Source: Ignavibacteria bacterium
GTDB lineage: Bacteria; Bacteroidota; Ignavibacteria; Kapaibacteriales; UBA4661
Length of the DNA: 48,182 bases
Reading direction: 5' to 3'
NCBI GenBank assembly: GCA_014654705.1
Contig: JACVZY010000046.1
Span: 1 to 48,182 of the forward strand
The notes below the pieces were generated by a model. It had not been told where the DNA came from and did no database searches. It was given only the letters and a program-made list of their open reading frames with translations. This document shows positions 6,001 through 22,165 of the stretch, one piece after another. The position numbers and the translations under genes are program-made. Each line of letters starts with the position of its first letter. Within the stretch, counting starts at the first letter, position 1.

Positions 6001-7978
6001 CCCGCACCGTAAAGGAATAAGAACCTGTTGCAGTTGGTGTACCGGAAATGATACCCGTTACTGAATCAAGCGAAACACCCGAAGGCAGTGTGCCGCTTTC
6101 AAGACTATAGGTTGGCGTAGGCGAACCGACAGCGATAAATGTATAGCTGTAGCCAATACCAACAGTCCCAGTTGTAGGAGGAGTTTGTGCTACCCAAAGT
6201 GGAGCCGGAGTCACTAAAGAAACTACTATCGTGAAAGGAGTGCTCGTAATAGAACCCGTACCATTCGTTGCACCGACAACAATTGGTCCATAGCTATTTG
6301 GTACACTTGGTATGCCCGACAACTTGCCCGTAACTGTATTTAACGTTAGTCCAGCGGGAAGTGTACCACTGACCACACTGTATGTTGGTCGTGGATTACC
6401 ACTAGCACCAAAGGTGAAATTATATGCCGAGCCTGCATCGGCAATTAATGGCGGCGTTTGCGAAACCCATGACGGCGCTTGATAAGGGCTAATAAAATTG
6501 ATAGCAAGATTCCGTCCGTTCAATCCCACCACCGTGCCGACATTGTTATTTTCTAGTGAGGCGTTCAAAAAGGTAATTTGAACATTGGTAACACTATTCG
6601 TCGAAGCGTGTACGCTTGCGTTTCCTGTGAAACTAATAGCAACGACAGAATCGGAGAGTTTCGTCAATACTGCTGTTAAACCGGAAGGAACATTCGCAAT
6701 GCTGTAGTGAACGCCCAGATTTAAGGCGCTATTGTTAGTAATGGAAGTTGACCACTTCGTGATACTTGGCGGAACTGTTATCGTCCGCACGCTACTGATA
6801 GCACCATCATTGAGAGCAGTTTCAGCAAACACCGTATCACTATATCGTGCAGGAATTGGCGTACACGTTGGAATATTTGATAATTTAATGATTCGCTGAA
6901 GATAATTGGTTGTTGCAACAATTTCCCCTGCCGAATTTCTTGCCATACCCAAAAACATAGTGGCAAAGGGATAGGAAGTACAACCCGAAGGGCAGTAGGT
7001 AAAGGTTGCATTATCAGGCGTTATTCTATATGAGCCTTGAGAAGTTAATTTAGAAATTCCGCCCTCAATGGCGATGTATAAATTACCAGAAGAATCAGGA
7101 AGTAATGAGAGTACACTATTTTGTATCTGAATGCCCTGAAATAGGTCGCCTGCATAACCATCTAGGTACGAAAGATTATATATGTCAAAGAGATATTTGA
7201 AAGTACCATCGGGTGAAATACGAAATATACCATTCTGGATAGTTACATAAAGATTATTATTAGCATCTATAGCAATTGATCGAGGATACCCTAAATTTGC
7301 ACTTGTTCCTGCTCCCGAACCATACCAACCAGATGCTCCTCCACTACCAACAACCGTTGAAACAGCTCCGTTTGGAGTTATTTTACGAATGCGATGATTA
7401 AGATAATCAGCAACATAGATATTACCAGAAGCATCAATTGCAAGACCTTGAGGATTATTAAATGATGCGTTTGTACCAACACCATCAGCAAATGCTGGAT
7501 TACCACTCCCGGCTAATGTACTAACAATCCCACTTGGTGTAATTTTCCGAATACGATTGTTTCCTGCGTCTGCTACATATAGATTACCAGCCGTATCTCT
7601 TACGATTCCCGTAGGCTGGTCAAATCTTGCCTCGGAACCTATACCGTCAGCATAGCCCGGCGAATCATTACCTGCAATTGTTACAACAAATCCATCAGGA
7701 GCAATTTTACGAACACCGTGAACATCAGTCACGTATACAAATCCGCTTGTATCAATCGTTATTCCGACAGCCTGTTTGTAATGGGCACTTGTGGCATTTC
7801 CATCCACCATTTGGAGTACTGATCCTGGGGCTCCTGTTCCAGAGAATACCGAGTACTGACCAACACATTGTCCCTGCACAATACTTTGGGAAAATAATAC
7901 TCCACAGACAATCGCGAGCAATACCAAAATACTCCTGCGGTAAAGATCATCTTTCTTTTGATGTAATTGAGTTCTCAT
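1..7978 (-). CDS. giant exported NHL-propeller / Ig-like / IPT-TIG repeat protein, 3' end outside window
   Basis: The frame opens at ATG 7978 and I followed it to the window edge (at least 2,659 codons); repeat motifs at 5506, 3343, 2923, 694 and 49 are all in this frame, so I see no frameshift. Order: signal peptide (about 1-35); NHL-type propeller repeats of the form GYADGxGxxAxFxxPxGI (about 37-365); one 105-residue module like those of the neighbouring giant gene (about 370-500); 13 putative Ig (He_PIG-like) repeats with SGTPT and YTFTVxAxNSAG motifs (about 500-1667); a second, more divergent propeller (about 1675-1940); one IPT/TIG; five near-identical 88-residue Ig repeats (about 2030-2461); then IPT/TIG domains, the third cut by the edge. 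By analogy with the neighbour, a T9SS sorting domain is expected beyond the window. Likely a cell-surface or extracellular adhesin-like protein; ligand unknown. No clear Shine-Dalgarno precedes the ATG. Confidence 0.88.
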   Translation of the reverse strand, partial: MRTQLHQKKDDLYRRSILVLLAIVCGVLFSQSIVQGQCVGQYSVFSGTGAPGSVLQMVDGNATSAHYKQAVGITIDTSGFVYVTDVHGVRKIAPDGFVVTIAGNDSPGYADGIGSEARFDQPTGIVRDTAGNLYVADAGNNRIRKITPSGIVSTLAGSGNPAFADGVGTNASFNNPQGLAIDASGNIYVADYLNHRIRKITPNGAVSTVVGSGGASGWYGSGAGTSANLGYPRSIAIDANNNLYVTIQNGIFRISPDGTFKYLFDIYNLSYLDGYAGDLFQGIQIQNSVLSLLPDSSGNLYIAIEGGISKLTSQGSYRITPDNATFTYCPSGCTSYPFATMFLGMARNSAGEIVATTNYLQRIIKLSNIPTCTPIPARYSDTVFAETALNDGAISSVRTITVPPSITKWSTSITNNSALNLGVHYSIANVPSGLTAVLTKLSDSVVAISFTGNASVHASTNSVTNVQITFLNASLENNNVGTVVGLNGRNLAINFISPYQAPSWVSQTPPLIADAGSAYNFTFGASGNPRPTYSVVSGTLPAGLTLNTVTGKLSGIPSVPNSYGPIVVGATNGTGSITSTPFTIVVSLVTPAPLWVAQTPPTTGTVGIGYSYTFIAVGSPTPTYSLESGTLPSGVSLDSVTGIISGTPTATGSYSFTVRANNSEGFIISSPLTITVNQAPSVFSAQTPPTYTVINTAYTPYTFVANGTPTPRYSLASGTLPTGLSLDPVSGTLSGTPTATGAFTFTVRASNVAGAITGTSTTITIILSPQAPNTFSVQTPSTTGIVGVSYPEYTFVADGMPTPTYTIANGALPSGLTLSSSGVLSGTPTTAGIFVIWVRASNNVGSIISSPIVITIYQAPSAITFYFPPTQSGTVGYPVVTSRFISSGSPTPTFSLASGTLPAGLTLSEDGFITGTPTVAGGHTYTVRASNIAGSVESAPFNIFINQGPSVFTSQGPLAIGVVGSEYAPYTFVANGTPAPTYYVSDGTFPPGLRFSGAGVLSGTPTAAGTYTFRVRAQNAGGDAYSDSVSITIHQAPNLFDYAQSPAAFAGIGTAYPQYTFVANGSPAPTYSVASGALPPGLTLTSGGILSGTPTAAGSYSFIVRASNSAGFFDSYSIPINITEAPSAFSAQSPSISGSVGSPYSSYTFVANGTPTPWYSIISGTLPPGLTLTYDGILSGTPTAAGAYTFAVQARSASGGIVYGSTTSNSITITITGAPTQFSAQSPPPNGAVGTSYVGYTFVANGVPVPTYSIASGTLPPGLSLSSAGVLSGTPTVVGSYIFSVRATNSGGAISSSPVSITIFPAYQAPSAFSAQTPATNGVIGSVYTSYTFIANGTPAPTYSIASGALPSGLALSSVGVLSGTPMSVGTFTFTVQATNSDGSVSSAPVTITIAPANYAPSVFSAQTPPTSGVIGTAYASYTFVANGTPAPTFSIASGALPSGLTLTTAGVLSGTPTAVGAYSFTVQASNNQGAVLSSLVTIVINNFGSQAPTIFFAQNPLWRHYAGAPYPTYTFVANGTPSPTYSIVSGSLPFGLTLSSTGVLSGIPTITGSYSFTVRASNSMGSLSSLPVTIIIDSAWMATTFPNYLGTWFLTANTIQDIVLGVNANPWPTFSIESGVLPVGLTLTADGRIIGTPTVVGTYTFTLRASNVAGSVVSAPYIFIVLPEATTVATGLGDMRHISRDNAGNIYAPIVGTGTIKKIAPDNSVTTFYSNATVSFKGGIARDKQGDFYLTAQGSGGMGKVLKISANGGTMNVLAETSTLQSALGLECDNNDNVWVAAGSAVVKIDKFGTTTSPYSHINNITWAMDIAFDTMGNIYIANAADSPGITKITSCGASTFLFNSYTPQYSYSPLWGIEVSQSGNIFVAGSSSQNIIKVLPNGTGSILARTSTPTGLLLSQDGNLIVANGFSSGSIQKIAVNGELPIEPLSIASNSPIRLTQFAPSSATAGDTVRIIGSGLTNASSVLFGTTSAQSFTVVNDTLIKAIVGGGGTGNLKVQNSASCVAEKTGFTYLNSVSAPTTFTAQSPISSMIVGTWYYYVFAANGSPAPTYSVASGTLPTGLTLISAGVLSGTPTSAGSYTFTLQASNSEGTVNSSPITITVTNPNIAPSAFTAQTPATSGAVGTTYTSYSFVANGTPAPMYSLASGTLPTGLTLSSAGVLSGTPTAAGSYTFTVQASNSAGNVNSSPITIIVTQAPSAFSAQTPATSGVVGTAFASYTFVADGTPAPTYSVASGTLPTGLTLSSAGVLSGIPTAAGSYTFTVQASNSAGSVNSASVTITVTQAPSVFSAQTPATSGIVDTAYASYTFVANGTPVPTYSVASGTLPTGLTLSSAGVLSGTPTAAGSYTFTVQASNSAGNINSLPATITVTQAPSAFSAQTPATSGAVGTAFASYVFVANGSPAPTYSVASGTLPTGLTLSSAGVLSGTPTAAGSYTFTVQAINSAGNVNSASITITVTQPTTTISSFAPASATVGNTVTIRGTGFTGASVVRFGGTAALSFVVASDTVITARVGTGASGAVSVTTPLGTASLAGFLYNVPPAPVAGSFSPMSARPGDTVVIRGVNFLSASTVSFGGVSMLYTVVSDSVIRAYISASAVSGSVNVITQGGTSNMNGFTFIPLPPAPRITSFTPNRAAEGASVVITGTNLTGATRVKF
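597..1890 (-). repeat. five tandem 264-bp coding repeats (88-aa Ig-like units)
   Basis: Unit boundaries, marked by the GTAACsGTrATTGT-like word on the plus strand, fall at 597, 861, 1125, 1389 and about 1662. The first three steps are exactly 264 bp and the fourth is 273 bp. Units are highly similar at the DNA level, which suggests recent expansion or continuing recombination inside the giant gene. Each encodes one putative Ig domain. Confidence 0.85.
2980..6480 (-). repeat. 13 diverged tandem Ig-like coding repeats (about 265-280 bp each)
   Basis: The SGTPT-type motif recurs near 3065, 3331, 3606, 3880, 4150, 4431, 4699, 4966, 5231, 5497, 5768, 6036 and 6300. These are the same Ig-like domain as the 264-bp array but clearly older, since codons and residues have diverged between units. 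The array is translated in one frame with no interruption that I could find. Confidence 0.8.
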
Positions 7979-8028
7979 GAATAAAAAAATAGTATTGAAA
8001 AAAATATAGTTGTGTTTTTTAACTAGCA

Positions 8029-8140
8029 CAAACATACAAGTACAACCTCGAAAAAAATAATTTCCGAAGGCAAAAAGCGCTGAGCGGGACATTTAAAACG
8101 CTGAGCGGGACATGACTCTCACTTTTGAGAGGAAAAAGTG
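8029..8140 (-). promoter_or_regulatory. promoter and paired-repeat operator of the left giant gene
   Basis: On the coding strand a TATGTTTG element (8036-8029) fits the Bacteroidota -7 consensus TAnnTTTG. Upstream lie two direct repeats, GCGCTGAGCGGGACAT at 8077-8092 and the same word with one change at 8098-8113 (plus-strand reading), 21 bp apart start to start. A dyad follows (CTCTCA 8116-8121 / TGAGAG 8126-8131, overlapping CACTTTT 8120-8126 / AAAAGTG 8134-8140). The same block, with the same distance from first repeat to -7 element, stands before the gene starting at 18796. A -33 element is only weakly visible as a T-rich run. Confidence 0.7.
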
Positions 8141-8226
8141 CCCTTTTTGCCATTTTTTTGCGTGCCCATTATTTCAATTTTTTCTTCTACCATTACCCCT
8201 TTTTTGCACCAATCCTCTCCCCAATA

Positions 8227-8272
8227 ACCAACAACGCCTGCCCGAACTTTTGTTCAGACAGGCGTTGCTGGT
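8227..8272 (-). terminator. hairpin terminator after the 3,498-aa giant gene
   Basis: CAACGCCTG (8232-8240) pairs perfectly with CAGGCGTTG (8259-8267). An inner GAAC/GTTC pair closes a TTTT loop, and an outer ACCA/TGGT pair (8227-8230 / 8269-8272) extends the stem. It lies 28 bp beyond the stop codon at 8300. No strong T-run follows directly, so termination efficiency is uncertain. Confidence 0.65.
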
Positions 8273-8299: not shown

Positions 8300-11200
8300 T
8301 TACCTTTTGACAAAGCGCACCACGTGGCGCACCACGCCATCGGACAATACCGCCGTGTATGCACCACTCGCCATGTCCCGCACATCCACTCGCGTCTGGA
8401 GATTGCCCCCAATGGACTCTTTGTTGAGTGTGTATATGGTTTGACCCAATGTGTTCAGAAGCGTGATGCTTACCATGCGACCATCGCCAAAACCTGTCGC
8501 CGTGAGCGTTACCACATCAGTCGCAGGATTCGGATACACACCCAACGATACCGATTCCGCAGTCTCACTCCGTCCCGCAAGAATGAGAGGCTCGGACGGC
8601 GGCGCTGAGGTGAAATGTGCACCACCGAAGCTGTCCAGCATCGCCACGAGCGGAATAAACGTGAAGCCCGAACGCAGTGCCACACCATCTGGTGTTACCA
8701 CTCGTATCACGCCCGATGCCGCATTCGTTGGCACTTCGACCGTAATTTTGCCCGAATGAATAACCGTGAACGGTACCGATGCACTTCCCATAAACACCTG
8801 AGTTGCACCCGTGAAGTACGTGCCGAGTATCGTGACCATCTGCCCAGGTGATGCCGATGCAGGCGCAAACGACGTTATCGTCGGTAATGGTCTTGGCAAA
8901 TACGTAAAGCCTGTTTTGCTTGCCGAGCCGCTTGGCGTTGTTACCGCCACACTACCCGATGCTCCGCCTCCGACAACAGCCGTGATGCGGCTTGCATTCA
9001 CTACCGTAAACGATTGTGCCGGAGTGCCACCAAAGGTCACTTGCGTTGCGCCCGTGAAGTTTGTTCCGTTAATCGTAATCACCGTTCCCGTTGTTGCTAT
9101 CGCAGGCGAGAACGTTGTTACCGTCGGCACTGGCGGCGGCGTTGGGAGCGTGAAGTTCATCGCTGAGGTTGCCGTACCGCCCGAAGCAACTACCTGTATT
9201 TTACCCGTGTTACCGGAGCCGATAGCAGCAGTAATTTGCGTTGGCGAGTCCACCGTGTAAGATGCTGCGTTAACACCACCAAATTTCACCGATGTTACAC
9301 CCGTAAACTCTGTGCCCAATATCGTGACCGTCGTACCCGCAGCACCCGTCGTAGGCGTGAAGGCGCTGATGGTTGGCGGTGGGAAGTAGGTGAAGCTCAT
9401 CGTGGAGGTCGTTACACCGGCTGGGGTATAGACGGTAATTCTACCGGTGTTTCCACCATTCACTTTCACTTTGAGCTGCGTCGGGGTCATGGACTGTATA
9501 ATACTCGTCACTGGCGGTGCATCGCCGATACGGACTGCTGTGGTGTACCAATCTGCGCCTTGGAAATTCAAACCATTGATGGTAATAACCGTACCGTCCG
9601 GTCCTTCGGTTGGCGTAAACGATGTGATAATTGGCGGATTGGGTCTGCCTGCTCCCGGAGCATAGTAAATAAACTTCGAGCGCGAGCCAACGCCACCCGG
9701 ACCGATGACCGTGACGGCACCAGTGTTTCCGGAACCGACGACTGCTTGTATGCGTGTGGGCGAGACGACGGTGTAGGAAGCAGCAATCATATCGCCAAAT
9801 TTTACACCGCTTGCGCCCGTGAAGTTGATACCATCAATCGTAATCACATCACCATCGGTTCCGCCCGAAAGCCAGAAGCCGTAGATAATCGGTGCCGGAA
9901 TAAACGTGAAGGTTGCCAAATCATCCGTGCATTGTGGCGTGGTAACGCTGATGCTGCCTGTTAATGGCGTTCCCGTTGCCGGAAATGCTGTAATCTCAGT
10001 ATCGGACACCACTACAAACGACGCGGCTGCTTTACCGTTAAACTTCACTGCCGTTGCGCCCGTAAAGTTGCTACCCCTGATAACGACTTGCGTTCCCGTG
10101 CTGGCACTCGTGGGAGCAAATGCCGTGATAAGAGGAGCCATATAGCAGAAGCCGTTGCGTACACCGACGTTCCCCGGAAGCGTCTCCACACGCACCGCGC
10201 CCGTCGCGCCTGCGCCAACCGTAGCTTGGATTTGCGTCGGGGAAAGTACCGTAAAGGATGTTGCCGGAGTACCACCGAAATACAAGCTTGTCGTTGTCCA
10301 CGACGTTCCGTTCAATGCCGTGCCTTGGAAATTCGAGCCAGTAATAGTTACCACTGCGCCCGCGTTACCCGTTGTCGGCGTAAAGGAACTAATGACCGGA
10401 CGTGGAACGTAGGTGAAGCCGGGCAGAATGGCAAAGCCCTGTGCATTAACCACCGTCACATCACCCGTTGAACCGTAATCCACTACCGCCGTTATCGTCG
10501 AATCTGACTGAACGGTAAAGGATTTTGCCGGAGCACCACCGAAGAGAACGTTTTGCGTTCCGGTGAAGCCAAAGCCGCTAATCGTCACCACTGTTCCCGT
10601 CGTGCCGACTTGCGGCGTGAAGCCAAGGATATTCGGGCTGGACGGCGGCGTAACATCGGGGTCGCGGAAATCTATCATCAGCGTTGCAGGCGTAAGCCCA
10701 ATAACAGCCGAAGGATTACCACTTGCCAGCGCTTCGGGCGTGAAGGTAATGGAAACACTCGCGTCGTTCACGTTTGCATGATTTGTTGCCGTGCCCGTGA
10801 ACGAAATTTGCGCTGTGGTCGAAGACGTGCGGGTCATCACCATTGTCAAGCCCGACGGAACACCTGTTGCTGTGAAGTGTGCGCCTTGCAAGAGTGTTGC
10901 GGGCAAGAATGAATCACCACCAAAGAGCGTGAGCGTGCGAACAGTCGGAACCGTGCCGTCATTTGCCGGACCTTCCACGAAGTTCTTCGCAGAATAGGTT
11001 GCCGTGTATGGTGCGATAAAGTCAATCGAGAGTTTTTTCGGTGTCAGTCCCGTTACTGCAGCTGCCGTGCCGCTTCCACTTTCCAATGCCGCGTTCAGGA
11101 AGGAAAGTGTGATGTTGTTCACATCAACCACGTGAGCCGCTGCTGCGCCCGAAAAGGCTATCTGCGCAACATTTGAGGAAGTCTTTGTAACGGTTAGGGT

Positions 11201-14200
11201 CAAGCCCGATGGAACACCCGAAACGTTAAAGTGTGTTCCCTGCACGAGCGTTGAAGCGGTCGTCGTAAAGTTCACACCGACAAGCGTCAGCGTACGAAGG
11301 GTTGGAACTGTGCCATCATTCGCAATGGACTCGGCAAAGGTTGTATCGGAATACGAAGCCGTGTAAGGGTCAAGGAAGTTGACGCGGAGCGTTTTAGGCG
11401 TTAAGCCGACCACACTCGCGACATTACCACCGGTCAGCACCGCAGGCAAGAACGTCAAGCTAACATCCGCGCTATTTGCTAGAGCATGAGCCGCAGCCGT
11501 GCCAGTGAAGGCGAGACGGGCTTGGGTAGCCGAAAGGCGTGTAACGACAAGCGTCAATCCATCGGGAACACCACTCGCAGTAAAGTGCGTCCCGTTCACA
11601 AATGCGCCACTGGCAAAGCTGGCATTAGTGAGGGTAACGGTACGGGCTGTGGTTATTTGACCGTTATTGGCTTGGATTTCCGAGAAGACAACATCGGAGT
11701 AGGCTGCCGAAGAACCTATCGGTGGATCGTTGAAATCAATCGTTAGTGTTTTCGGCGTTAAGCCTGTAACGGCAGAAACAGAGCCATTCGCAAGAGCCGC
11801 ATTGAGGAAGGTTAGGGTGAATGATGTGTCGTTGATATTAGCATGGGCTGCAGCCCTACCGCTAAAAACAAGTTGTGCCCTAGTGGGTGAATCTCGGACG
11901 ATACTGAATGTCATACCATCTGGAATGGCTGTCGTATTGTAATGTGTACCCGGAGTAAATGTACCACCATCAGGAACAGCCGAAGACCATGTTGTTCCCG
12001 CAAGTGTAATTGTTTGGGTTGTGGTAATTGTACCGTTATTGGCAATGGCTTCCGGGAACACAGTGCCTGAGTATGTTGCCATAAGCGGAAACTGCCCCGA
12101 TGCACCACAGACATAGACCGAGCGGATACGTTGGTTAAAGCGGTCGGCAATAAACAGATTGCCAGAAGCGTCGAGCGCTAATCCAATAGGATAATTAAAA
12201 GCTGCACTTGTTCCAACACCATCAAGATAACCCGATGTTCCTTTTCCAGCTATGGTACTAACCACACCAGTCGGTGTTATTTTACGAATTAAGCTATAAG
12301 GATAATAATCTGCAACATACAGATTTCCCTGAGTGTCTATTGTTAGACCAGTTGTTTGTCCAAATGAAGCGGACAAGCCCGTCCCGTTTACATTACCAAG
12401 CACACCGCTACCCGCCAAGACACTGACAGTACCATTTGTGGACACTTTGAAAACCTTGTTTATAGCATACCCGGCAACATAGAGATTTCCTGATAATGCA
12501 TCAACCGCAATGCTGTGGGGTCCATTATTTGGGAATGTACTTTTACTATACGTGGAAACAACTCCTCCGCTGATTTTACGAATAACTTTGTTTCCGTAAT
12601 CTGCCACATAAATATCACCCTTTGCATCAACTGCTACATCATGTGGTTGACCAAAACCTGCAGTTGCGAGCGGTCCATCTTTGTACGATTCATACCCATT
12701 GGGTCTAAATATAGAGGAAACTACCCCTGTTGGTGAAACGATACAAATACGGCCATTTAGAGCATCGGCTACATAAATATTGCCGGCAGCGTCAATTCCA
12801 ATCCCTTGAATATCTGCAAATCCAGCATTTTCACCAATGCCATCTTGCCATCCGAGTACAGCATTCTTCCCAGCAAGTGTAGTCACCATACCAGATGGGG
12901 TAATTTTACGAATGCAGTATTGCTCTGCAACATAGACATTTCCTGCGGCATCTGTAACAATATCCCTAGGATCAGCAAATGAAGCCATTATTCCAACACC
13001 ATTTACCACATTTGCATTTGCATTACCCGCAAACGTTGTGACAGCACCACAGGTTGGGTCGGCAAAATCAACAAACAATCGTTTCGCTGTCAACCCTATG
13101 ATGCCCGTAGCATTACCGCTTACGAGAGCCGCGTTCAAAAATGTCAACGTCACAACGGCATCATTAGCGTTGTTGTGCGCAAGGGCAGCACCACCTAATG
13201 ATAGTTCTACCACAGTAGGCGATGTGCGTCTAAGATTCAGCGTCAGACCCGCTGGAACACCTGTTGCCGTAAAGTGTGTTCCCAGCACTAAATTATTCAC
13301 CGCGACAAAAGAATCGCCATTCAGTGTCAATGTGCGAACAGTGTTCACGGAGCCATTATTATTTGCCGATTCAACAAACGTCGAATCGGAATAGACAGCC
13401 ACACCACTCTGGGGCGCATCAGCAAAATCAATTGTGAGAGTTTTAGGGGTTAAGCCCATTACGGCTGCGGCATTGCCACTAACAACGGCAGCGTTCGAGA
13501 ACGACAATCCAATAGTAGCATCGTTGAGGCTTTCATGTGCCGCTGCGCTGCCCGTAAAGGCAAGTTGTGCGACCGTCTGAGATGTACGCGTCACGCTTAG
13601 TGTCAATCCCGCCGGAACACCTGTTGCGATAAAGTGTACTCCCGGCGTGAATGCGCCCGTTGGAACAAACGTATCGAAGGCGAGCGTAATGGTTCGTGTG
13701 GTCAAAACTGTACCATTGTTGACAGCCGACTCCACAAACGACGTACCCGAATAAAATGCCGAAGGATTATCTTGGAAGTCAACTGTTATCGTTCTATTCA
13801 AGCCAGCTATTTGTTCCGTTGGTGTTAGACTCGCAAGAGCCTGCGGCAGAAATGTAAGCGTTATGGTCGAATCATGTGCATTCTGATGCGCTAGAGCAGT
13901 ACCCGTGAAACTCAGCGTAGCCACTGTCGCCGATGTTTTAGTGAGACGCAATTGCAATCCGGCGGGCACACCTAAAGCGATGTAATGCGAACCCGCAACA
14001 AACGTTGAGTTCACGCCTACGGCAGAAGTCCATTGCGCATCGGTCAACGTGATAGTGCGCGTGGTGGTCACTGTGCCTGTGTTGGCTGCCGCCTCAGGAA
14101 AGACGGAACCAGAATAGATAGCAACAGGAGAGTTCAAGAATGTGATACCAAGACGCACTAGTGGCAGCTGAGAGCCGCTGCCACTGGTGATAGCAGGATT

Positions 14201-17200
14201 CAAAAACTGGATAGTTGCGGTGGTATTATTACCTGATTCGTGAGCAAGTGCTGCCCCGGCAAAACTTATTTGTATCTTCCCATTGGCAGTACGCTTCAGA
14301 ACAAGTGTTAATCCTTGCGGTACATTCGTAACGTTGTAATGAACGCCGCGCTGTAAGGTATCAACACTTGAGAATGTGGAACAGCTAATACCGAGTGTAT
14401 CTTTTTTGGTAATCGTACCATTATTGACAGCTGCCTCTGGGAAGGCAAATTGTGTTGCCGATAATGTTCCGACGGCAAGTTGCGCCGGTGAACCAAGAGG
14501 AATCGGCAATTCTCCGGAATTAGACACTCTGGAGATTCTACCTACGTTTTCAGTCACAAACATATTACCCACAGCATCAAGACCAAGGTGAACGGGCTGA
14601 TTGAACGAACCGGGGAATGTTTGTAGCTGCCCAAGTCCGCTGGTCGCAGCAAGCACTTGAGGTTCGGCATATTGAAGAATACCGCTTGGAATGGCGTTCG
14701 TGATAAATATCCGACCCGCCTGTGTGCGCGTCAGACCATTCGGCACATTCAGCCCCGTAGCAATAATGCGCGGAGCAAGCGAAGAACAGAGATAAATTTT
14801 GATAAGTTGACCTGTTCCCAATCCCGATGCGTTTGTACCAAAATCTGCTACAACAATATGCCCGTCGCTATCCAAGATAGCATGGATAGGATGCTGCAGA
14901 GGAGCACCTTGATAAAGGACATTTGCCACAGTTGGGGATTGAACTTGTACAATCGAGGCATTACCATAGGAGGCGACATACAGATTACCTTGTTTGTCCA
15001 CATCCAACCCATATGGCGTACTCAATAAATTTGATGAGTAGTAGGTTGTAGAAATACTTGCACCAGGTGCCAGTTTTTCGATGGAGTTTGCAAGCGTTGT
15101 CACATAGATATTGCCGATGCTGTCAATAGCAATACCGCCCGTCAACAAGGCAGTGGAAGTGAAACCCGTTAGAACTTGAACTGGTCCGCTTGATTGAGAA
15201 GCAAACTTATAGACTGTTCGAGTTCCCTGCTGCGGCACATAGAAATTACCCTGAGCATCGCGGGCGATGTGATACGGCGCATATCCAACATTAGCAACGA
15301 CCCCAGTAGTTGGATTTTGGAACGTAATAGAAAGCGTTTTGGGTGTCAGTCCTGTTACAGCAAGCGCATTACCGCTTGCGACTGCAGCATTGAGAAAGGT
15401 TAATGTTGCGTTCGTATTATTAGCAAGTGCGTGAGCAAGAGCCGCACCAGTGAAAGAAACGCTGGCTTGCGTTGCCGAAAGACGGGTAATGGTTAATGTT
15501 AGTCCCGTCGGCACACCAGTTGCCGTGAAGTGCGTTCCGGCAACAAAAGCCGCTCCATCAGGAACAGTTGAAGACCACGTTGTTCCGGCGAGGGTAATGG
15601 TTTGGGTTGTGGTAATCGTACCATTATTGGCAATGGCTTCCGGAAAGACAGTGCCGGAGTATGTTGCCACAAGCGGAAACTGCCCTGATGCACCACAGAC
15701 AAAGACCGATCGGATGCGCTGATTAAAGCGATCACTGATAAAAAGATTGCCGAAAGCGTCCAGTGCAAGGCTCACCGGATAGTTAAATGTTGCGCTAGTT
15801 CCCAAACCATCAGCATAGCCTTGTAAGCCGTTTCCGGCAATAGTTGTCACAACACCAGCAGGGGTAATTTTACGAATCAAACTGTAGGGGTAATAGTCTG
15901 CAATGTAGAGATTGCCCTGTGTATCAATCGTTACGCCAAAGGGTCCCCCAAAAGATGCCGATGTACCGACACCATCTGCTTTCCCTGTACCACCACTTCC
16001 TGCCACAACACTCACAGCACCTGTTGAAGATACTTTATAGATTTTATTAGAATTAGTACCTGGAACATAAAGAGTTCCGGATGCGTCAATAACAAGGTTA
16101 GCGGGACCATTTGTAATTGGAGTTGTATTAAATGTAGAGACCACACCATTACTGATTTTCCGAATTGCGTTATTATGAAAATCAGCAACAAAGATGTCGC
16201 CAGCAGCATTAATAGCAACATCCTGCGGGGCGTAAAATGTTGCCGAAGCAACAGATCCATCTTTGTATCCATTACCATTACCACCCGCTATAGTTGTAAC
16301 GGTACCATCCGGTGAAATCTTTCTGATTGCGGCATTGCTTTCATCAGCTGCATAAATATTTCCGAAGGCATCTAAAGTAAGCCCCCACACTGAACCAAAT
16401 CGTGCGGCTGTTCCTTTACCATTTACAAAACCAGAAACGGTAGCACTACCGGCTAGTATTGTGACGACTCCTGCGGGTGTAATTTTACGAATACAGTATT
16501 TGTCAGCTACATAGACATTACCCGCTGCATCGGTTACCACATCACGCGGGTCAGCAAACGATGCCATAATTCCTGTTCCATCTATCACATTTGCATTACC
16601 ATTGCCAGCAAACGTTGTGACAGCACCACAAGTCGGGTCAGCAAAATCAACAAACAATCGCTTCGGTGTCAAACCGATATTCCCCGAAACATTACCACTA
16701 AGAAACGCTGCATTCAAGAAGGTCAGTGTTACCACAGCGTCGTTCGCATTTGCGTGTGCCAGAGCCGAACCGCTAAAGGAAAGTTGCGCGGTTGAGGGCG
16801 ACGTGCGAGTAATGGTGAGTGTTAGACCTGATGGTACGCCACTAGAAGTGAAGTGCGTTCCTTGTACTAATGTGCTAATTCCGACAAATGAGTCACCGTT
16901 TAGCGTGAGTGTGCGGACGGTATTGACCGAGCCATTATTACTTGCTGACTCAATAAACGTCGAATCGGAATAGACAGCCGTACCCAAGGCTTGGGTATCA
17001 GTAAAATCAATGGTGAGAACTTTTGGTGTCAGCCCCGCCACCGCTGCTGCATTACCACTCACAACAGCTGCATTCAAGAAGGTTACAGTCACCGTAGCAT
17101 CGTTCACATTCTCATGTGCCAGCGCTACGCCCGTAAAACTAAGCTGTGCTACCTCGGACGAAGTACGAGTAATAGAGAGTGTTAGCCCTGCCGGAACACC

Positions 17201-18796
17201 AGTTGCAGTAAAGTGGACACCTTGAGTAAAAGTACCAGTTGGCACAAAAGTATCGAATGCGAGGGTAACCGTGCGCACGGTAGGAATAGTACCATTATTA
17301 GCCGTGGCTTCGCTAAAGGTCGTTCCGGTATAAAAAGCAGTACTAGGATTGAAGTACGAAATACTTAGGTTAACACCATTCAAACCTTGTACCGAAGAAG
17401 CAGCCGCTCCATTAAGAGCAGCATCGGTGAAGGTAAGCTGAACATTATTAACATTGTTCGTACTGAGGTGATTCGCTGCATTGCCCGTAAAACTTATTGT
17501 TGCTTGCGAGGCAGATATTTTCGTTACTACTGCCGTCAAGCCTGCGGGAACATTTGAAGCTGAAAAATGGATACCCTGTGTAAGGGTTGTACCACTAGGA
17601 ATCGTGTTTGACCATGTAGTATTGGCTAGTGTTATGTTATAGGTTGTTAAGACAGAACCATTATTAGTGACCGCTTCACTGAAGATTGTACCACCAAATA
17701 CAGCGCTCGGCGGGAATGTTGGTATTTCAGTAATTTTTCTAATTCGATTATTACCTAAATCAGCAACATAGATATTCCCTGCCATATCTACCGAGACTCC
17801 ATATGGATTATTGAATCTTGCTTCTGTACCTAATCCATCTACAGAACCCGCGTCTGCTCCGGCAATCGTAGACACTAAACCAATAGAATTAATTTTGCGA
17901 ACACGATTGTTATACATATCACCAACATAAAAATTTCCGTTATTGCTATCATAAGCAATTCCATGAGGGTAAAAAAAGCGCGCTGTTGTACCAATTCCAT
18001 CTTGGAAACCAGCAATGTTCTTTCCTGCAAATGTCGAAACAATGCCATCTGTACTGATTTTTCTTATACAATTATTAAAAGCATCGGCAACATAAATATT
18101 CCCCTGATTATCAATGGTAAGTGCCGCAGGGTTATTAAACCTAGCAATACCAACTGCTCCATTAACATAGCCAATAATACCGTTCCCGGCTATTGTGGAA
18201 ACCAATCCTGAGGGAGTAATCTTACGAATTCGTTGGTTCTCATAGTCCGCAACGTAAAGGTTGCCAGATTTATCAAGTGCGATACCACTCGGACGATTTA
18301 ATTGTGCAGTGGTTCCCATTCCATCTGCGTAACCCGGTGTACCATTTCCCGCAAAAGTAGTTACTACTCCTGCTGGCGATATTTTACGAATATAATGACT
18401 CATTCTGTCCGAAACGTATATCGTTCCGTCAGCAGCTATCGCGATCGAATTGGGATACGTAAACTGAGCATTTGTACCAACACCGTCTCTATACCCTATA
18501 CTACCACTACCTGCAAATGTAGTAACATTACCAGTCGGAGAAATTTTCCGAATGTAATTATTAAGCCAATCGACAACATATACATTGCCATTAGCATCAA
18601 ATTGAACATTTGTGGGTGAATTGAATTTTGCATTTACTCCAACGCCATCAAGATATCCTTGCGTACTTCCGGCAAGGGTACTCACATTATACACTTGTGA
18701 TACAGCAACTTGTGTAGAGGAAGGCACTCCAACACATAGACATATCACGAACACTATGTAATTCATGAGACCTGCTATTGTCCTGCTACGTTTCAT
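8300..18796 (-). CDS. giant T9SS-secreted NHL-propeller / IPT-TIG surface protein (3,498 aa)
   Basis: The start at 18796 is supported by a good Shine-Dalgarno (AAGGAG, 18809-18804, 7-nt spacer). Order: signal peptide (about 1-34); six NHL repeats (about 38-355) with GYxDGxGTxAxF and GNxYVADxxNxxIRKI motifs; then 12 copies of a 105-residue module (FxEAxxNNGT...GVPAGLTLxxTRTS...GLTPKTLxIDF) interrupted by three further propeller blocks; eight IPT/TIG domains; and a C-terminal type A T9SS sorting domain (VYPNPATD ... GAYTAVLSDG ... FVKR). Modules 2-4 with their NHL block are duplicated as modules 7-9, about 3.58 kb away. The sorting domain predicts outer-membrane passage by T9SS and surface attachment or release. 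Ligand unknown; an adhesin or matrix role is inferred. The gene lies directly downstream of a LytTR regulator gene but behind its own promoter. Confidence 0.93.
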   Translation of the reverse strand: MKRSRTIAGLMNYIVFVICLCVGVPSSTQVAVSQVYNVSTLAGSTQGYLDGVGVNAKFNSPTNVQFDANGNVYVVDWLNNYIRKISPTGNVTTFAGSGSIGYRDGVGTNAQFTYPNSIAIAADGTIYVSDRMSHYIRKISPAGVVTTFAGNGTPGYADGMGTTAQLNRPSGIALDKSGNLYVADYENQRIRKITPSGLVSTIAGNGIIGYVNGAVGIARFNNPAALTIDNQGNIYVADAFNNCIRKISTDGIVSTFAGKNIAGFQDGIGTTARFFYPHGIAYDSNNGNFYVGDMYNNRVRKINSIGLVSTIAGADAGSVDGLGTEARFNNPYGVSVDMAGNIYVADLGNNRIRKITEIPTFPPSAVFGGTIFSEAVTNNGSVLTTYNITLANTTWSNTIPSGTTLTQGIHFSASNVPAGLTAVVTKISASQATISFTGNAANHLSTNNVNNVQLTFTDAALNGAAASSVQGLNGVNLSISYFNPSTAFYTGTTFSEATANNGTIPTVRTVTLAFDTFVPTGTFTQGVHFTATGVPAGLTLSITRTSSEVAQLSFTGVALAHENVNDATVTVTFLNAAVVSGNAAAVAGLTPKVLTIDFTDTQALGTAVYSDSTFIESASNNGSVNTVRTLTLNGDSFVGISTLVQGTHFTSSGVPSGLTLTITRTSPSTAQLSFSGSALAHANANDAVVTLTFLNAAFLSGNVSGNIGLTPKRLFVDFADPTCGAVTTFAGNGNANVIDGTGIMASFADPRDVVTDAAGNVYVADKYCIRKITPAGVVTILAGSATVSGFVNGKGTAARFGSVWGLTLDAFGNIYAADESNAAIRKISPDGTVTTIAGGNGNGYKDGSVASATFYAPQDVAINAAGDIFVADFHNNAIRKISNGVVSTFNTTPITNGPANLVIDASGTLYVPGTNSNKIYKVSSTGAVSVVAGSGGTGKADGVGTSASFGGPFGVTIDTQGNLYIADYYPYSLIRKITPAGVVTTIAGNGLQGYADGLGTSATFNYPVSLALDAFGNLFISDRFNQRIRSVFVCGASGQFPLVATYSGTVFPEAIANNGTITTTQTITLAGTTWSSTVPDGAAFVAGTHFTATGVPTGLTLTITRLSATQASVSFTGAALAHALANNTNATLTFLNAAVASGNALAVTGLTPKTLSITFQNPTTGVVANVGYAPYHIARDAQGNFYVPQQGTRTVYKFASQSSGPVQVLTGFTSTALLTGGIAIDSIGNIYVTTLANSIEKLAPGASISTTYYSSNLLSTPYGLDVDKQGNLYVASYGNASIVQVQSPTVANVLYQGAPLQHPIHAILDSDGHIVVADFGTNASGLGTGQLIKIYLCSSLAPRIIATGLNVPNGLTRTQAGRIFITNAIPSGILQYAEPQVLAATSGLGQLQTFPGSFNQPVHLGLDAVGNMFVTENVGRISRVSNSGELPIPLGSPAQLAVGTLSATQFAFPEAAVNNGTITKKDTLGISCSTFSSVDTLQRGVHYNVTNVPQGLTLVLKRTANGKIQISFAGAALAHESGNNTTATIQFLNPAITSGSGSQLPLVRLGITFLNSPVAIYSGSVFPEAAANTGTVTTTRTITLTDAQWTSAVGVNSTFVAGSHYIALGVPAGLQLRLTKTSATVATLSFTGTALAHQNAHDSTITLTFLPQALASLTPTEQIAGLNRTITVDFQDNPSAFYSGTSFVESAVNNGTVLTTRTITLAFDTFVPTGAFTPGVHFIATGVPAGLTLSVTRTSQTVAQLAFTGSAAAHESLNDATIGLSFSNAAVVSGNAAAVMGLTPKTLTIDFADAPQSGVAVYSDSTFVESANNNGSVNTVRTLTLNGDSFVAVNNLVLGTHFTATGVPAGLTLNLRRTSPTVVELSLGGAALAHNNANDAVVTLTFLNAALVSGNATGIIGLTAKRLFVDFADPTCGAVTTFAGNANANVVNGVGIMASFADPRDIVTDAAGNVYVAEQYCIRKITPSGMVTTLAGKNAVLGWQDGIGENAGFADIQGIGIDAAGNIYVADALNGRICIVSPTGVVSSIFRPNGYESYKDGPLATAGFGQPHDVAVDAKGDIYVADYGNKVIRKISGGVVSTYSKSTFPNNGPHSIAVDALSGNLYVAGYAINKVFKVSTNGTVSVLAGSGVLGNVNGTGLSASFGQTTGLTIDTQGNLYVADYYPYSLIRKITPTGVVSTIAGKGTSGYLDGVGTSAAFNYPIGLALDASGNLFIADRFNQRIRSVYVCGASGQFPLMATYSGTVFPEAIANNGTITTTQTITLAGTTWSSAVPDGGTFTPGTHYNTTAIPDGMTFSIVRDSPTRAQLVFSGRAAAHANINDTSFTLTFLNAALANGSVSAVTGLTPKTLTIDFNDPPIGSSAAYSDVVFSEIQANNGQITTARTVTLTNASFASGAFVNGTHFTASGVPDGLTLVVTRLSATQARLAFTGTAAAHALANSADVSLTFLPAVLTGGNVASVVGLTPKTLRVNFLDPYTASYSDTTFAESIANDGTVPTLRTLTLVGVNFTTTASTLVQGTHFNVSGVPSGLTLTVTKTSSNVAQIAFSGAAAAHVVDVNNITLSFLNAALESGSGTAAAVTGLTPKKLSIDFIAPYTATYSAKNFVEGPANDGTVPTVRTLTLFGGDSFLPATLLQGAHFTATGVPSGLTMVMTRTSSTTAQISFTGTATNHANVNDASVSITFTPEALASGNPSAVIGLTPATLMIDFRDPDVTPPSSPNILGFTPQVGTTGTVVTISGFGFTGTQNVLFGGAPAKSFTVQSDSTITAVVDYGSTGDVTVVNAQGFAILPGFTYVPRPVISSFTPTTGNAGAVVTITGSNFQGTALNGTSWTTTSLYFGGTPATSFTVLSPTQIQATVGAGATGAVRVETLPGNVGVRNGFCYMAPLITAFAPTSASTGTQVVIRGSNFTGATAVKFNGKAAASFVVVSDTEITAFPATGTPLTGSISVTTPQCTDDLATFTFIPAPIIYGFWLSGGTDGDVITIDGINFTGASGVKFGDMIAASYTVVSPTRIQAVVGSGNTGAVTVIGPGGVGSRSKFIYYAPGAGRPNPPIITSFTPTEGPDGTVITINGLNFQGADWYTTAVRIGDAPPVTSIIQSMTPTQLKVKVNGGNTGRITVYTPAGVTTSTMSFTYFPPPTISAFTPTTGAAGTTVTILGTEFTGVTSVKFGGVNAASYTVDSPTQITAAIGSGNTGKIQVVASGGTATSAMNFTLPTPPPVPTVTTFSPAIATTGTVITINGTNFTGATQVTFGGTPAQSFTVVNASRITAVVGGGASGSVAVTTPSGSASKTGFTYLPRPLPTITSFAPASASPGQMVTILGTYFTGATQVFMGSASVPFTVIHSGKITVEVPTNAASGVIRVVTPDGVALRSGFTFIPLVAMLDSFGGAHFTSAPPSEPLILAGRSETAESVSLGVYPNPATDVVTLTATGFGDGRMVSITLLNTLGQTIYTLNKESIGGNLQTRVDVRDMASGAYTAVLSDGVVRHVVRFVKR
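11965..13770 (-). repeat. second copy of an internal duplication in the giant gene
   Basis: This segment encodes modules 7-8, an NHL propeller and the start of module 9. It matches 15550-17350 in order and in long stretches of DNA, at an offset of about 3.58 kb. Examples are the stretches at 13046-13095 vs 16626-16680 and 12050-12140 vs 15635-15730. The centre of the propeller has diverged more than its ends. Confidence 0.75.
15550..17350 (-). repeat. first copy of an internal duplication in the giant gene
   Basis: This segment encodes modules 2-3, an NHL propeller and the start of module 4. It is the partner of 11965-13770. It is coding in one frame throughout, so the duplication enlarged the protein rather than breaking it. 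Confidence 0.75.
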
Positions 18797-18865
18797 TTAA
18801 AGACTCCTTAAGAATTAGAAAAATTAGAACTTAGAAGACGAGAACACATTTTTTGACGAACAGCA

Positions 18866-18976
18866 CAAAAATAGAGAGCAAACTGCAAAAAAAATAATTT
18901 TGGAAGGCAAAAAGCGCTGAGCGGGACATATAAAGCGCTGAGCGGGACATAACTCTCATTTTTGAGAGGAAAAATG
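18866..18976 (-). promoter_or_regulatory. promoter and paired-repeat operator of the 3,498-aa giant gene
   Basis: The coding strand has TATTTTTG (18873-18866) followed by TGCT, as in the left giant gene. Perfect copies of GCGCTGAGCGGGACAT lie at 18914-18929 and 18935-18950 (plus-strand reading), period 21 bp. A dyad follows at 18953-18976 (CTCTCA/TGAGAG, and CATTTTT 18957-18963 / AAAAATG 18970-18976). From first repeat to -7 element is 41 bp here and at the other promoter. The repeats would lie roughly 50-90 bp upstream of transcription start, a usual place for an activator. Confidence 0.7.
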
Positions 18977-19242
18977 CCGTTTTTTGTTGTCCTCTGTTTT
19001 GGCAAATGAGGAGACAGCGCTGTTTGTTTTATACGTTTTTCTTGCAAAGCACAAGGCTCAATTCACACGATTATTTGCACCTCTCTACAAAAGTACAGAA
19101 GTATTCTGCCCAGTATTGTTTGCACAGTGGCAATTTAGCACAATGTCTGACCGCACACGATACCCCAAAAGTCATTATTTCCTCTACCTAAAAGTCATAG
19201 TCAAAACCTACGCTGTTAGCCTCACTTCCCGCGTTTCATTTC
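18977..19242. other. intergenic stretch without recognised gene
   Basis: Between the operator block of the giant gene and the terminator of the LytTR gene I see no coding sequence worth calling. Short open frames on both strands lack start signals and protein-like composition, and no RNA gene was recognised. Confidence 0.5.
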
Positions 19243-19290
19243 CCCCAAAAACAACGCTCGCCCCATAGAAATTTTCACTGGGCGAGCGCT
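19243..19290 (-). terminator. rho-independent terminator of the Kelch-LytS-LytTR operon
   Basis: GGGCGAGCG (19280-19288, plus reading) pairs with CGCTCGCCC (19255-19263) around an A/T-rich loop. On the minus strand the stem is followed by a TTGTTTTT run. It lies about 33 bp past the response-regulator stop codon, so the operon and the giant gene are probably separate transcripts. Confidence 0.8.
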
Positions 19291-19322
19291 GGTAAAAAAC
19301 AAGAAAAGCGACTAGGGGACAG

Positions 19323-20057
19323 TCAGGTGCCAAGCCGCTGACTCATAATCGAAATGAAAACAGGCTTCATTCGTTTGGATACGTTAAGGCGTACTCCATT
19401 AGCCATAATAGCCACAGCACCACGTCCACTTGGCTCCCAGCCTGTACAGTACGTGCAGTTAATCAGCGTCCCCCGCTCAATCTCTACTCCACCCACTTCA
19501 GCAAGACTTTCAGCACATTCGGTGAGCGTGTTGAGTAAGTAATAAGAAGAACCATCTTCAAGTGCCACTTTCACATAACCACTAAATGCCTCGCAATAAA
19601 CGATGCTTTGCACCGGCATTGCCAGCACACCGCCATCACGCAAGCGAGCGGACAAGAACGAAGTGGTTAATTCCGCCGGTGTAACTTTCGTTCGTGGTCG
19701 GGCGTTCAGCACACGTTTTACCGCCTCACGGAGTTCATCGGGGTCAATGGGCTTCAAAATATAGTCAATAGCTTGATACCGAAAGGCGCGGGCACCAAAT
19801 TCGGGATAGCTCGTTACAAAAACGACTTCAAATGTCAGTGCAGGAAAAGCATCCAGCACATCAAAGCCCGTGCCCCCGATTAAATCAATATCTAAAAAGA
19901 CAATATCCGGCTCAAGATTACGGATGGCGAAGATAGCGGTATCCACAGAAAATGCCTCACCAATAATAGTAACGGTACCCGAAAAAGCCGCCTCCAACTT
20001 GCGTTGGAGCGTGAAGCGTTGTGCTTTTTCATCGTCAACAATAATTGCTCGCAGCAT
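19323..20057 (-). CDS. LytTR-family response regulator
   Basis: A 244-residue REC plus LytTR DNA-binding protein of the LytR/AlgR/AgrA class. In the receiver domain (about 1-120) I see the acidic pair D8-D9, the phosphoacceptor D56 (FLDIDL), T82 and K102. The LytTR domain (about 133-240) carries the typical GYVKV...YYLLNTL segment. I chose ATG 20057, which gives a TGATG stop-start overlap with the kinase; a TTG one codon earlier (20060) is possible. It is the last gene of the operon and almost certainly the partner of the upstream kinase. Candidate targets are the two giant genes, whose promoters carry paired direct repeats at 21-bp period; this link is inference. Confidence 0.93.
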   Translation of the reverse strand: MLRAIIVDDEKAQRFTLQRKLEAAFSGTVTIIGEAFSVDTAIFAIRNLEPDIVFLDIDLIGGTGFDVLDAFPALTFEVVFVTSYPEFGARAFRYQAIDYILKPIDPDELREAVKRVLNARPRTKVTPAELTTSFLSARLRDGGVLAMPVQSIVYCEAFSGYVKVALEDGSSYYLLNTLTECAESLAEVGGVEIERGTLINCTYCTGWEPSGRGAVAIMANGVRLNVSKRMKPVFISIMSQRLGT

Positions 20058-22165
20058 CAAACAACTTCTCCCAGATGAGGTTGTGAAAGAATGGGAATGT
20101 GTAACGCAACTCGTGTTCCTATCGCAGAACCATCGGCATCAGCTAAATCGTCATATTGAACGCTCCGTACCTGCATTTGTAAATCCGAAAGCAATGTCAG
20201 GCGTTGCTCGTTGATACGTGTAGAGCGCGAAAGACCTTGATGATGAGCGCCACGCGAAGCATAGATTTCTTGTGCTTTGGCGCGCCCCACGCCATTGTCC
20301 TCCACGACGCACAGAATATACTCTTTTTCCTGCTGTTTGAGATGAGAGATCACGACTGATAAATGCCCCATACGCTTCAGGGCGGGGTGCGTAAAATTAA
20401 AATCTTGCAGCAACCCCAGCCCGTACTTAATGGCGTTTTCCACATATGGTTGAATAAGCATACTTGGTATGGGCATTGCGAGTTGCTCCGGCGTGAGCGT
20501 GTGCTCCACCACGTAGTCGAATGTGTAATCCATCCGTAATTGCTCAAGTGCAATATACACGTTCAGGAAATCAATTGCTCGCTGAACTGACACCGTACTG
20601 TTATCACTGTGTTCAAGCACCATGCGGAAAAGTTTTGCCAATATCCGAATGTAATGGGAAGCCATTTCGGTTTTCTTTTCGAGTACCAACGACTCCACCG
20701 CCGCCAGAGAATTATAGACAAAATGGGGTTTCATTTGAAGATGAAGTGTTTGCAGTTGCAGCGTGGTGATTTGAAGACGTAAATACTCTTGTTCGTGCTG
20801 AACACGTAAATGCTCCTGCTCGACCTGAAGCTGCCTGCGCAATGCTCGCACCAAATATAGCAATGCCATCACCAAGCACCCAATAAAACCAACGCAGGCT
20901 AAGAGAATGGACGGCGAGGTTAAAATCGTCGGCATGAATCGTAGAATGTTGCTACCATCTTCACTGGCAAATACTGTTGGCTTTTCGATGCGTTCAAGCA
21001 TTTCGACAGACGAAACAGGTTCACCACGCAGGTTGACTCCGCCGATAACAAGAGCACGAGATTCATTCTGATAGCCAAACGTATCAAAGCCCTGAAGTCC
21101 GATAACCGAACAGCCAGAGCGGGCTTCATTTAGCAGAGGGCTTGACGACAGAGAGCATTGCCCGGTCAGCAAATCAACCCACTCGGTTTGTTGCAATACC
21201 GTCCCGTGCGCATCGCGTCCCCCCAGCACCAGTAAGGAATCGTTATTCCACTGCACAACGCCGTGTGCTTGGCGGGCTATTTTCATCGTTGCTGCTTTTC
21301 TGAAACCATTATACGTTTCAATACCAATGCGGTCTGATACCGAATGTGGAGCAATCATCGTATTTACACCACCGGAAAGAACTAAGCGGTCGTCGTACAG
21401 CCGCAAGAGATGAGGCGAAAACACAGAATCAATATAATTGCCGTTCGGCTCCCATTGCCGTTTTTTCTCATTGTATCGGTGAAGAGCATTTTGGGGTGTA
21501 CCATCCGTACTTTTGCCGGCAATCACCACAGCGTTACCATACGAAAAGCCGACGGAAACAGCACACGCACCTGCTGCAATGGGATAAGGAAAGTGCGTCA
21601 CAATGCGACTGCGTCCAGTCTTGACGTTGAAGATTTCTGTTTCCGCTATGGGTACTCCCGCTTGAGTCATACCGCCCACGACGAGAATTTCGTCATTGCT
21701 GATAAAGGTTGCCATCGGACGACGGCGTGCTATGAGGAGAGAACCGAGAACGCGCCATGATTTGTAAAGACGGTCGTAGAACTCACACACCTTCGTTAAA
21801 GCACGATTCGTGCTGACACCGCTCAGGATAACAAGACTGGAATCGCCGTTCTGTACTAATGCTGCTTCAGCGTGGGGAACATTCATCGGCAGTGCCTCGG
21901 CAATATGGCGATTGCGTGTATCTATCTCTTCACAAAAACTGAGTGGAATTTTTTGGTTTGTTGCCCTATCCCACTCATACCCGCCGATAACAAGAATGCG
22001 ATACGGCTGAATAGCAGCAATGCTACTTTCCAGATGTGGCTTGGCGAGAGTACCCAGTATGCGCCACTGAAGCGCTTGCTGCTGTGCCGATAGGTATTCG
22101 CCCCGCATCACGAATAGCAGTAAGGTATGTATTATGACCGTAAGAAAGCATCTCTGTTTTCTCAT
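20057..22165 (-). CDS. Kelch-propeller LytS-type sensor histidine kinase
   Basis: 702 residues: signal peptide (about 1-28), periplasmic Kelch-type propeller (about 30-395, blades ending in ILVVGG, LVLSGG, LLVLGG and ALVIGG), a membrane helix (about 412-440), a coiled linker rich in Q/L/E (about 441-475), then a His_kinase (LytS/YehU family) domain with phosphoacceptor H481 in QMKPHFVYNSL. The ATPase domain has N577 in PYVENAIKYG and a G1 box VEDNGVGR (about 621-628). It autophosphorylates on ATP binding in this family and passes phosphate to a LytTR regulator, here encoded next. Its ectodomain is homologous to the five upstream proteins, sharing for example WRVLGSLLI and a LTSP motif just before the helix, but it is the most divergent of them. 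It overlaps the preceding gene by ATGA. Confidence 0.93.
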   Translation of the reverse strand: MRKQRCFLTVIIHTLLLFVMRGEYLSAQQQALQWRILGTLAKPHLESSIAAIQPYRILVIGGYEWDRATNQKIPLSFCEEIDTRNRHIAEALPMNVPHAEAALVQNGDSSLVILSGVSTNRALTKVCEFYDRLYKSWRVLGSLLIARRRPMATFISNDEILVVGGMTQAGVPIAETEIFNVKTGRSRIVTHFPYPIAAGACAVSVGFSYGNAVVIAGKSTDGTPQNALHRYNEKKRQWEPNGNYIDSVFSPHLLRLYDDRLVLSGGVNTMIAPHSVSDRIGIETYNGFRKAATMKIARQAHGVVQWNNDSLLVLGGRDAHGTVLQQTEWVDLLTGQCSLSSSPLLNEARSGCSVIGLQGFDTFGYQNESRALVIGGVNLRGEPVSSVEMLERIEKPTVFASEDGSNILRFMPTILTSPSILLACVGFIGCLVMALLYLVRALRRQLQVEQEHLRVQHEQEYLRLQITTLQLQTLHLQMKPHFVYNSLAAVESLVLEKKTEMASHYIRILAKLFRMVLEHSDNSTVSVQRAIDFLNVYIALEQLRMDYTFDYVVEHTLTPEQLAMPIPSMLIQPYVENAIKYGLGLLQDFNFTHPALKRMGHLSVVISHLKQQEKEYILCVVEDNGVGRAKAQEIYASRGAHHQGLSRSTRINEQRLTLLSDLQMQVRSVQYDDLADADGSAIGTRVALHIPILSQPHLGEVV

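Follow-up and report, generated by a model that had tools for sequence, protein, structure and literature searches.

A candidate LytTR-type operator upstream of giant, probably type IX-secreted proteins in an uncultured Ignavibacteria lineage

Published LytTR operators and the repeat element of the window

According to two earlier studies, LytTR sites are made up of two repeats of 9–11 nt lying 11–13 nt apart (PMC4847170), and the repeats are mostly spaced by 12 bp and situated slightly upstream of the −35 element (PMC6193735). For AgrA, a further report places the proximal repeats near −60 (PMC4227749). The operators of AgrA, YpdB, and HdrR/BrsR have in common with the element described here two direct repeats of that length and spacing just upstream of a promoter. 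ComE/BlpR and VirR also belong to the LytTR-type operator systems, and a LytS-type kinase and a LytTR regulator encoded nearby are a further point of likeness to such systems at one orthologous locus, which accounts for 2 of the 10 copies described below.

We analysed 48,182 nucleotides of contig JACVZY010000046.1 from an Ignavibacteria bacterium (hereafter, the window), in which two giant genes on the minus strand were characterised by domain searches. Giant gene 1 (8300..18796) encodes 3498 aa with NHL repeats, TIG, and Por_Secre_tail; giant gene 2 (2..7978) runs off the contig end and encodes at least 2659 aa with NHL repeats and many Ig-like domains. The proteins share 43% identity over 199 aa at the N-terminus, in keeping with the divergence ascribed to them in the preliminary description of this DNA. 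Since both are transcribed from the minus strand, the element preceding each giant gene is best read in that orientation, in which both promoters contain, in order, the inverted repeat CTCTCA-N4-TGAGAG, two copies of ATGTCCCGCTCAGCGC, an AT-rich stretch, and a −7 box of the form TAnnTTTG.

The whole element before giant gene 1, delimited by ungapped alignment with four other copies, spans 117 bp (18858..18974, minus strand). It comprises the inverted repeat (18953..18968), a promoter-distal direct repeat (18935..18950, no mismatches) with the 9-mer CCCGCTCAG at 18938–18946, a promoter-proximal direct repeat (18914..18929, no mismatches) with the 9-mer at 18917–18925, and the −7 box TATTTTTG (18866..18873). 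The counterpart before giant gene 2, delimited by ungapped alignment of the copies, lies at 8021..8137 on the same strand, with the inverted repeat at 8116..8131, the distal repeat at 8098..8113 (one mismatch; 9-mer at 8101–8109), the proximal repeat at 8077..8092 (no mismatches; 9-mer at 8080–8088), and the −7 box TATGTTTG at 8029..8036. The preliminary description had reported the 16-mer GCGCTGAGCGGGACAT at 18914, 18935, and 8077 and, with one base changed, at 8098; the coordinates bear out these occurrences and the 21-bp period in both promoters. When up to three mismatches were allowed, the window held four matches to the 16-mer, against 0.35 expected from shuffles, and none of 100 shuffles reached four. 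The conserved block of the two promoters is larger than the 16-mer pairs alone, extending over 125 bp at 83% identity. The distance from the first repeat to TAnnTTTG, which had been described as fixed, is 41 bp in both window promoters (18914 − 18873 = 8077 − 8036), but it is exact in only 6 of the 10 copies described below.

Folded as RNA, the 117-nt block was modestly more stable than its shuffles (z −2.35; 5 of 200 shuffles as good), and the reading as an RNA element was dropped because the gain is modest and the block lies upstream of the presumed promoter. Folding as DNA gave z −3.48, owing to the inverted repeats. GC-rich hairpins seen by eye at 19240–19295 and 8220–8265 (minus strand), after the regulator gene and giant gene 1, respectively, look like intrinsic terminators, and each element would therefore open a new transcription unit.

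The 9-mers of the window, CCCGCTCAG, stand 12 bp apart, within the spacing given for LytTR sites in the two studies (PMC4847170, PMC6193735). If TAnnTTTG occupies −12 to −5, the position assigned to the −7 box in another report (PMC9723704), the centre of the proximal 9-mer falls at −60 and that of the distal one near −81 relative to predicted start sites. Compared with known LytTR operators, the locus is new in its box (CCCGCTCAG, replaced by ACCGTTCAG in the congener G003), in its Bacteroidota-type TAnnTTTG promoter, in an extra inverted repeat 21 bp further upstream, in wider conservation of each repeat (about 16 of 21 bp, which exceeds what a LytTR site of 9–11 bp requires and counts against the LytTR reading), and in having giant secreted proteins as targets. 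The general LytTR consensus reportedly formulated by Nikolskaya and Galperin in 2002 is fitted by the G003 form and, at 7 of 9 positions, by the window form, a likeness that we treat as a lead. The suggestion in the preliminary description that paired sites two helical turns apart suit a dimeric activator agrees with two head-to-tail half-sites, with binding and activation being the predicted part of that proposal. We consider with good confidence that the operator belongs to the LytTR class; it would be of a kind already known, showing LytTR-type geometry, with binding predicted from that geometry. The surprise is moderate because this kind of system is already known. On the weak evidence of literature searches, the regulon itself appears to be undescribed in work on LytTR regulators, type IX secretion, or Kapabacteria.

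Copies of the element and their target genes

The source genome (G000) comprises 5,724,991 bases in 118 contigs, and searches covered sets of 10 family genomes (G000–G009), 8 genus genomes, and 391 class genomes. The genome-wide scan proposed in the preliminary description, with up to three mismatches allowed, yielded four pairs in G000, namely, the two of the window (18k and 8k) and those on contigs C83 and C109. All four lie upstream of a large secreted-looking open reading frame (ORF), and the anticipated downstream TAnnTTTG occurs at the same offset in three, with none within 330 nt at C83. The single 16-mer occurred 64 times in G000 with up to three mismatches and 28 times in the reversed control; single sites are therefore mostly noise, and it is the pair that counts as the unit. 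A sequence-only model (R1), built from five copies over 69 positions with the −7 box left out, recovered the same four copies in G000 at E values up to 10. Across the 10 family genomes it returned 12 rows, of which 10 were strong: four in G000, three in G007, one in G006, and two in G003. Two weak rows were dropped, one being the opposite strand of the known G007:C54 copy and the other G003:C643 (E 0.09). The model did not find the element in G001, G002, G004, G005, G008, or G009.

The element is thus counted in four species, G000 and the congeners G003, G006, and G007, that is, in 4 of 8 genus genomes, with 10 copies: 18k, 8k, C83, and C109 in G000; G006:C166; G003:C399 and C511; G007:C54 and C118; and C88. 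A direct pattern search gave the same 10 pairs and none in the reversed control. Beyond the genus, the 391 class genomes gave nothing above noise, the weak matches in seven genomes (best E 0.003) being left uncounted. A scan of genome contigs with a single 15-mer hit at least 117 stretches; among the matches listed, only the Candidatus Kapaibacterium Prado071 record, which corresponds to G007:C118, has two hits 21 bp apart.

All 10 copies lie upstream of, and point at, a same-strand ORF of secreted-protein appearance, and not within genes, at gene ends, or as dispersed repeats unrelated to promoters. The longest frame begins 133–331 nt past the first repeat in seven copies; for 8k, C109, and the G006 copy it begins before or inside the block, and a later start was chosen by eye. 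To the eye, the predicted N-termini look like signal peptides. The six complete target ORFs measure 3498, 1435, 2274, 1519, approximately 2250, and 1412 aa, all above 1400 aa, and the four that run off contigs measure at least 2659, approximately 1690, at least 332, and at least 575 aa. Their domains are either NHL, TIG, He_PIG, and DUF5122 propellers or BNR/Sortilin with CUB, cohesin, and dockerin. Por_Secre_tail exceeded its cut-off of 27 in four of the six targets with a complete C-terminus (18k, C54, C88, and C399) and scored below it in C83 (21.8) and the G006 target (25.4), the four further targets running off contigs. The target proteins are probably type IX-secreted.

The direct-repeat pair is kept in all 10 copies by selection in the search, with three mismatches in one copy, and the copies are not independent events because several are visibly related promoters. 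TAnnTTTG, whose intergenic background is 0.0009 per position, stands at an offset of 75 (counted from the G in the first TGT) in six copies (18k, 8k, C109, C88, C118, and C511), at 76 in C54, and at 63 in the G006 copy, and is absent from C83 and G003:C399; where present, it places the repeats just upstream of a predicted promoter. The 9-mer form ACCGTTCAG occurs in both repeats of G003:C399 and in one repeat of C511.

Eight of the 10 copies have an intact inverted repeat; C88 lacks it, and in C399 it has decayed. Exact CTCTCA-N4-TGAGAG sites numbered 15 in six genomes, eight inside elements and seven elsewhere, one of the latter within a gene. Sites standing alone in intergenic regions were seen at G000:C51:281297, G002:C53:34214, and G003:C215:548. 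Because it is also found without direct repeats, the inverted repeat may, and probably does, belong to a separate regulator.

The adjacent LytTR regulator and the kelch kinase encoded with it

Directly upstream of the element that precedes giant gene 1, the gene at 19323..20060 (minus strand) encodes a candidate binder, a response regulator of 245 aa with a receiver domain (Response_reg PF00072, 53.9 bits) and a C-terminal LytTR domain (PF04397, 33.6 bits; cut-off 22.6), both above their cut-offs. Its gene is overlapped by that of a 702-aa sensor kinase (20057..22165, minus strand) in which a domain search found kelch repeats and His_kinase. A search of solved structures with the regulator gave 63 matches; the 60 listed fall wholly or mostly within the receiver domain and for that reason say nothing of LytTR. 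The locus resembles PorX/PorY in that it would connect two-component control with probable type IX cargo; unlike PorX, the regulator of the window has a LytTR output domain, and it scored 21.7 bits on the PorX model, whose cut-off is 300. Upstream of the kelch kinase, five tandem kelch-protein genes (22162–29192, minus strand; 461–474 aa) have overlapping start and stop codons; their products are 35–39% identical to the kelch half of the kinase, and parts of their DNA are up to 93% identical to one another.

The gene order is the same in G007, where a regulator (67% identity) and a kinase (48%) precede the element and a related giant gene, which shares 57% identity with that of the window over 2325 aligned positions. 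A LytTR gene adjoins only 2 of the 10 copies, which represent one orthologous locus (G000 and G007). The product of 19323–20060 is the best candidate for the cognate regulator, a pairing that we judge somewhat likelier to be right than wrong.

We propose that the kelch sensor kinase presumably phosphorylates the LytTR regulator encoded with it, and that two regulator monomers would then bind the two 9-bp direct repeats on one helix face. From sites lying approximately 60 and 81 bp ahead of the predicted start, the regulator would help RNA polymerase start at TAnnTTTG, and a shared operator would make a regulon of several dispersed genes for giant, probably type IX-secreted proteins. Inferred here are the binding itself, a role as activator and not as repressor, the cognate pairing, and the signal. 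Taken as a whole, the explanation of the element as an operator used by a LytTR-type response regulator appears probable to us, and it offers a candidate regulator–operator pair through which an uncultured lineage would control giant secreted proteins.

The pairing, though not the operator class, would be different if another LytTR protein acted in trans and the adjacent regulator controlled something else, which we hold to be possible but on the unlikely side. G003 and G006 both carry the element, but searches there found no close copy of the regulator (best-scoring matches of 36% and 32%, no reciprocal best hit) and no copy of the adjacent kinase at E 1e-60, and G000 has many LytTR genes (at least 36 matches). 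Against this stand the neighbourhood conserved in G000 and G007 and the single G006 copy, which is altered as expected after regulator loss: its second repeat reads CGCTCACCG and its −7 box lies 12 bp nearer. The changed but regular repeats of G003 would be explained if the regulator itself had changed, or if it were absent from an assembly that is 91% complete. The regulator of locus L242, considered as a trans partner, was rejected; at E 1e-45 it is present in 7 of the 10 family genomes, including G001, G002, and G005, all of them without the element. With respect to gene numbers, the four element-bearing genomes ranked highest among the eight genus genomes, with at least 36, 31, 25, and 24 LytTR matches, and the others had at least 20, 12, 7, and 2.

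Repeats of 21-bp period near other LytTR genes

Were the geometry proper to LytTR systems, one would expect repeats of 21-bp period, though differing in sequence, close to further LytTR genes. We examined 120 LytTR loci drawn from the matches listed (32 from G000, 71 from G003, G006, and G007, and 17 from G004; the element's own loci left out), mostly with about 4 kb on each side and less at contig ends. Direct repeats of 13-mers with at most one mismatch and periods of 13–34 were scored on one strand in crude intergenic parts (no ORF of at least 120 aa). Period 21 accounted for 19 repeats in 16 of the 120 loci, whereas periods outside 20–22 averaged 3.5, with a maximum of 11 at period 30. At the G000 loci, 13 of 17 repeats had periods of 20–22 bp (7 of 32 loci), compared with none of 12 in twenty 20-kb control stretches of G000 hand-picked away from listed LytTR genes (Fisher test by locus, P = 0.025; a Poisson value is naive because some loci contain several repeats). 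The corresponding figures were 18 of 66 for G003, G006, and G007 (14 of 71 loci; 48 repeats at other periods) and 1 of 15 for G004 (1 of 17 loci). An OmpR control of 10 loci with 7.9 kb of intergenic sequence gave one repeat, at 22 bp, a sample too small to decide.

The repeat boxes differ between LytTR loci, and TAnnTTTG lies within 80 nt in 10 of 27 box groups, against 3.4 expected (P = 0.001). Such repeats near LytTR genes provide a simple handle for assigning operators to many paralogous regulators. One box is common to G000:C99 and G006:C338, where it is flanked by a LytTR gene on one side and a large ORF on the other. At this pair of loci, the regulators are 92% identical, the divergent ORF exceeds 1000 aa and is cut by the stretch, and the repeat, which differs from that of the element and has a 20-bp period, has TAnnTTTG 24 nt away.

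The association of the period with LytTR loci also weighs against an operator for some other family of activator, such as an OmpR-like protein or a dimer on the palindrome CGCTCAGCG inside each repeat, although the OmpR control is too small to settle the former case. The odd palindrome and the conservation of about 16 bp per repeat would suit such an activator; the palindrome is broken by uncompensated changes (CGTTCAGCG in G003, G006, and G007:C54) while the rest of the copy is kept, and the dimer is accordingly not favoured. Overall, we regard an activator of another family as unlikely.

Promoters copied along with paralogous genes could be alike merely by descent and have no special function. 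The 8k, C109, and G006:C166 copies do share sequence outside the block, and several target proteins are mutually related; in other copies the flanks differ, and the likeness is limited to the repeats, the inverted repeat, and the −7 box. Moreover, the targets of C83 and G003:C399 are of an unrelated protein kind (BNR, CUB, and dockerin; 53% identical) and are still preceded by near-identical paired repeats, and the same two changes appear in both repeats of G003:C399. Descent alone is quite unlikely as an explanation. A dispersed mobile or recombination element, such as a transposon end or an invertible-promoter site, would account for multiple copies with inverted and direct repeats but is highly improbable, given that every copy points at a downstream secreted-looking ORF, so that position is not independent of genes, that orthologous targets retain their copy across species, and that nothing above noise turned up outside the genus in 391 class genomes.

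Returning to the LytTR operator, many LytTR systems of the genus may own private 21-bp-period operators, the kelch system switching a giant type IX surface-protein regulon and its closest paralog pinensin-like lanthipeptides, as insulated duplicated pairs for contact and competition around bloom-forming cyanobacteria; we offer this wider picture tentatively, as one that may well prove wrong. The closest G000 paralog of the regulator is encoded on contig C44 (48% identity overall, but only 29% in the LytTR domain) and adjoins tandem 21-bp repeats with the core CGYTCA, the same core as in the element. Streptococcal LytTR bacteriocin regulons (Blp/Com and HdrRM/BrsRM) are alike in that the repeats adjoining the C44 paralog precede lanthipeptide-like genes, and differ in that the system of the window is a paralogous one with giant secreted proteins as targets. 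At G000:C44:30400–39600 (1–4100, minus strand), approximately nine small peptides with leaders of the KKxxLDELxVxSFVT type are encoded beside the paralog, a 415-aa LytTR protein with two receivers. Two of the five peptides scanned scored below the pinensin-leader cut-off and three above it. Tandem 21-bp repeats of CGYTCACTCC and TAGTTTTG precede some of the small-peptide genes, and the locus is likely to be a LytTR-controlled lanthipeptide cluster.
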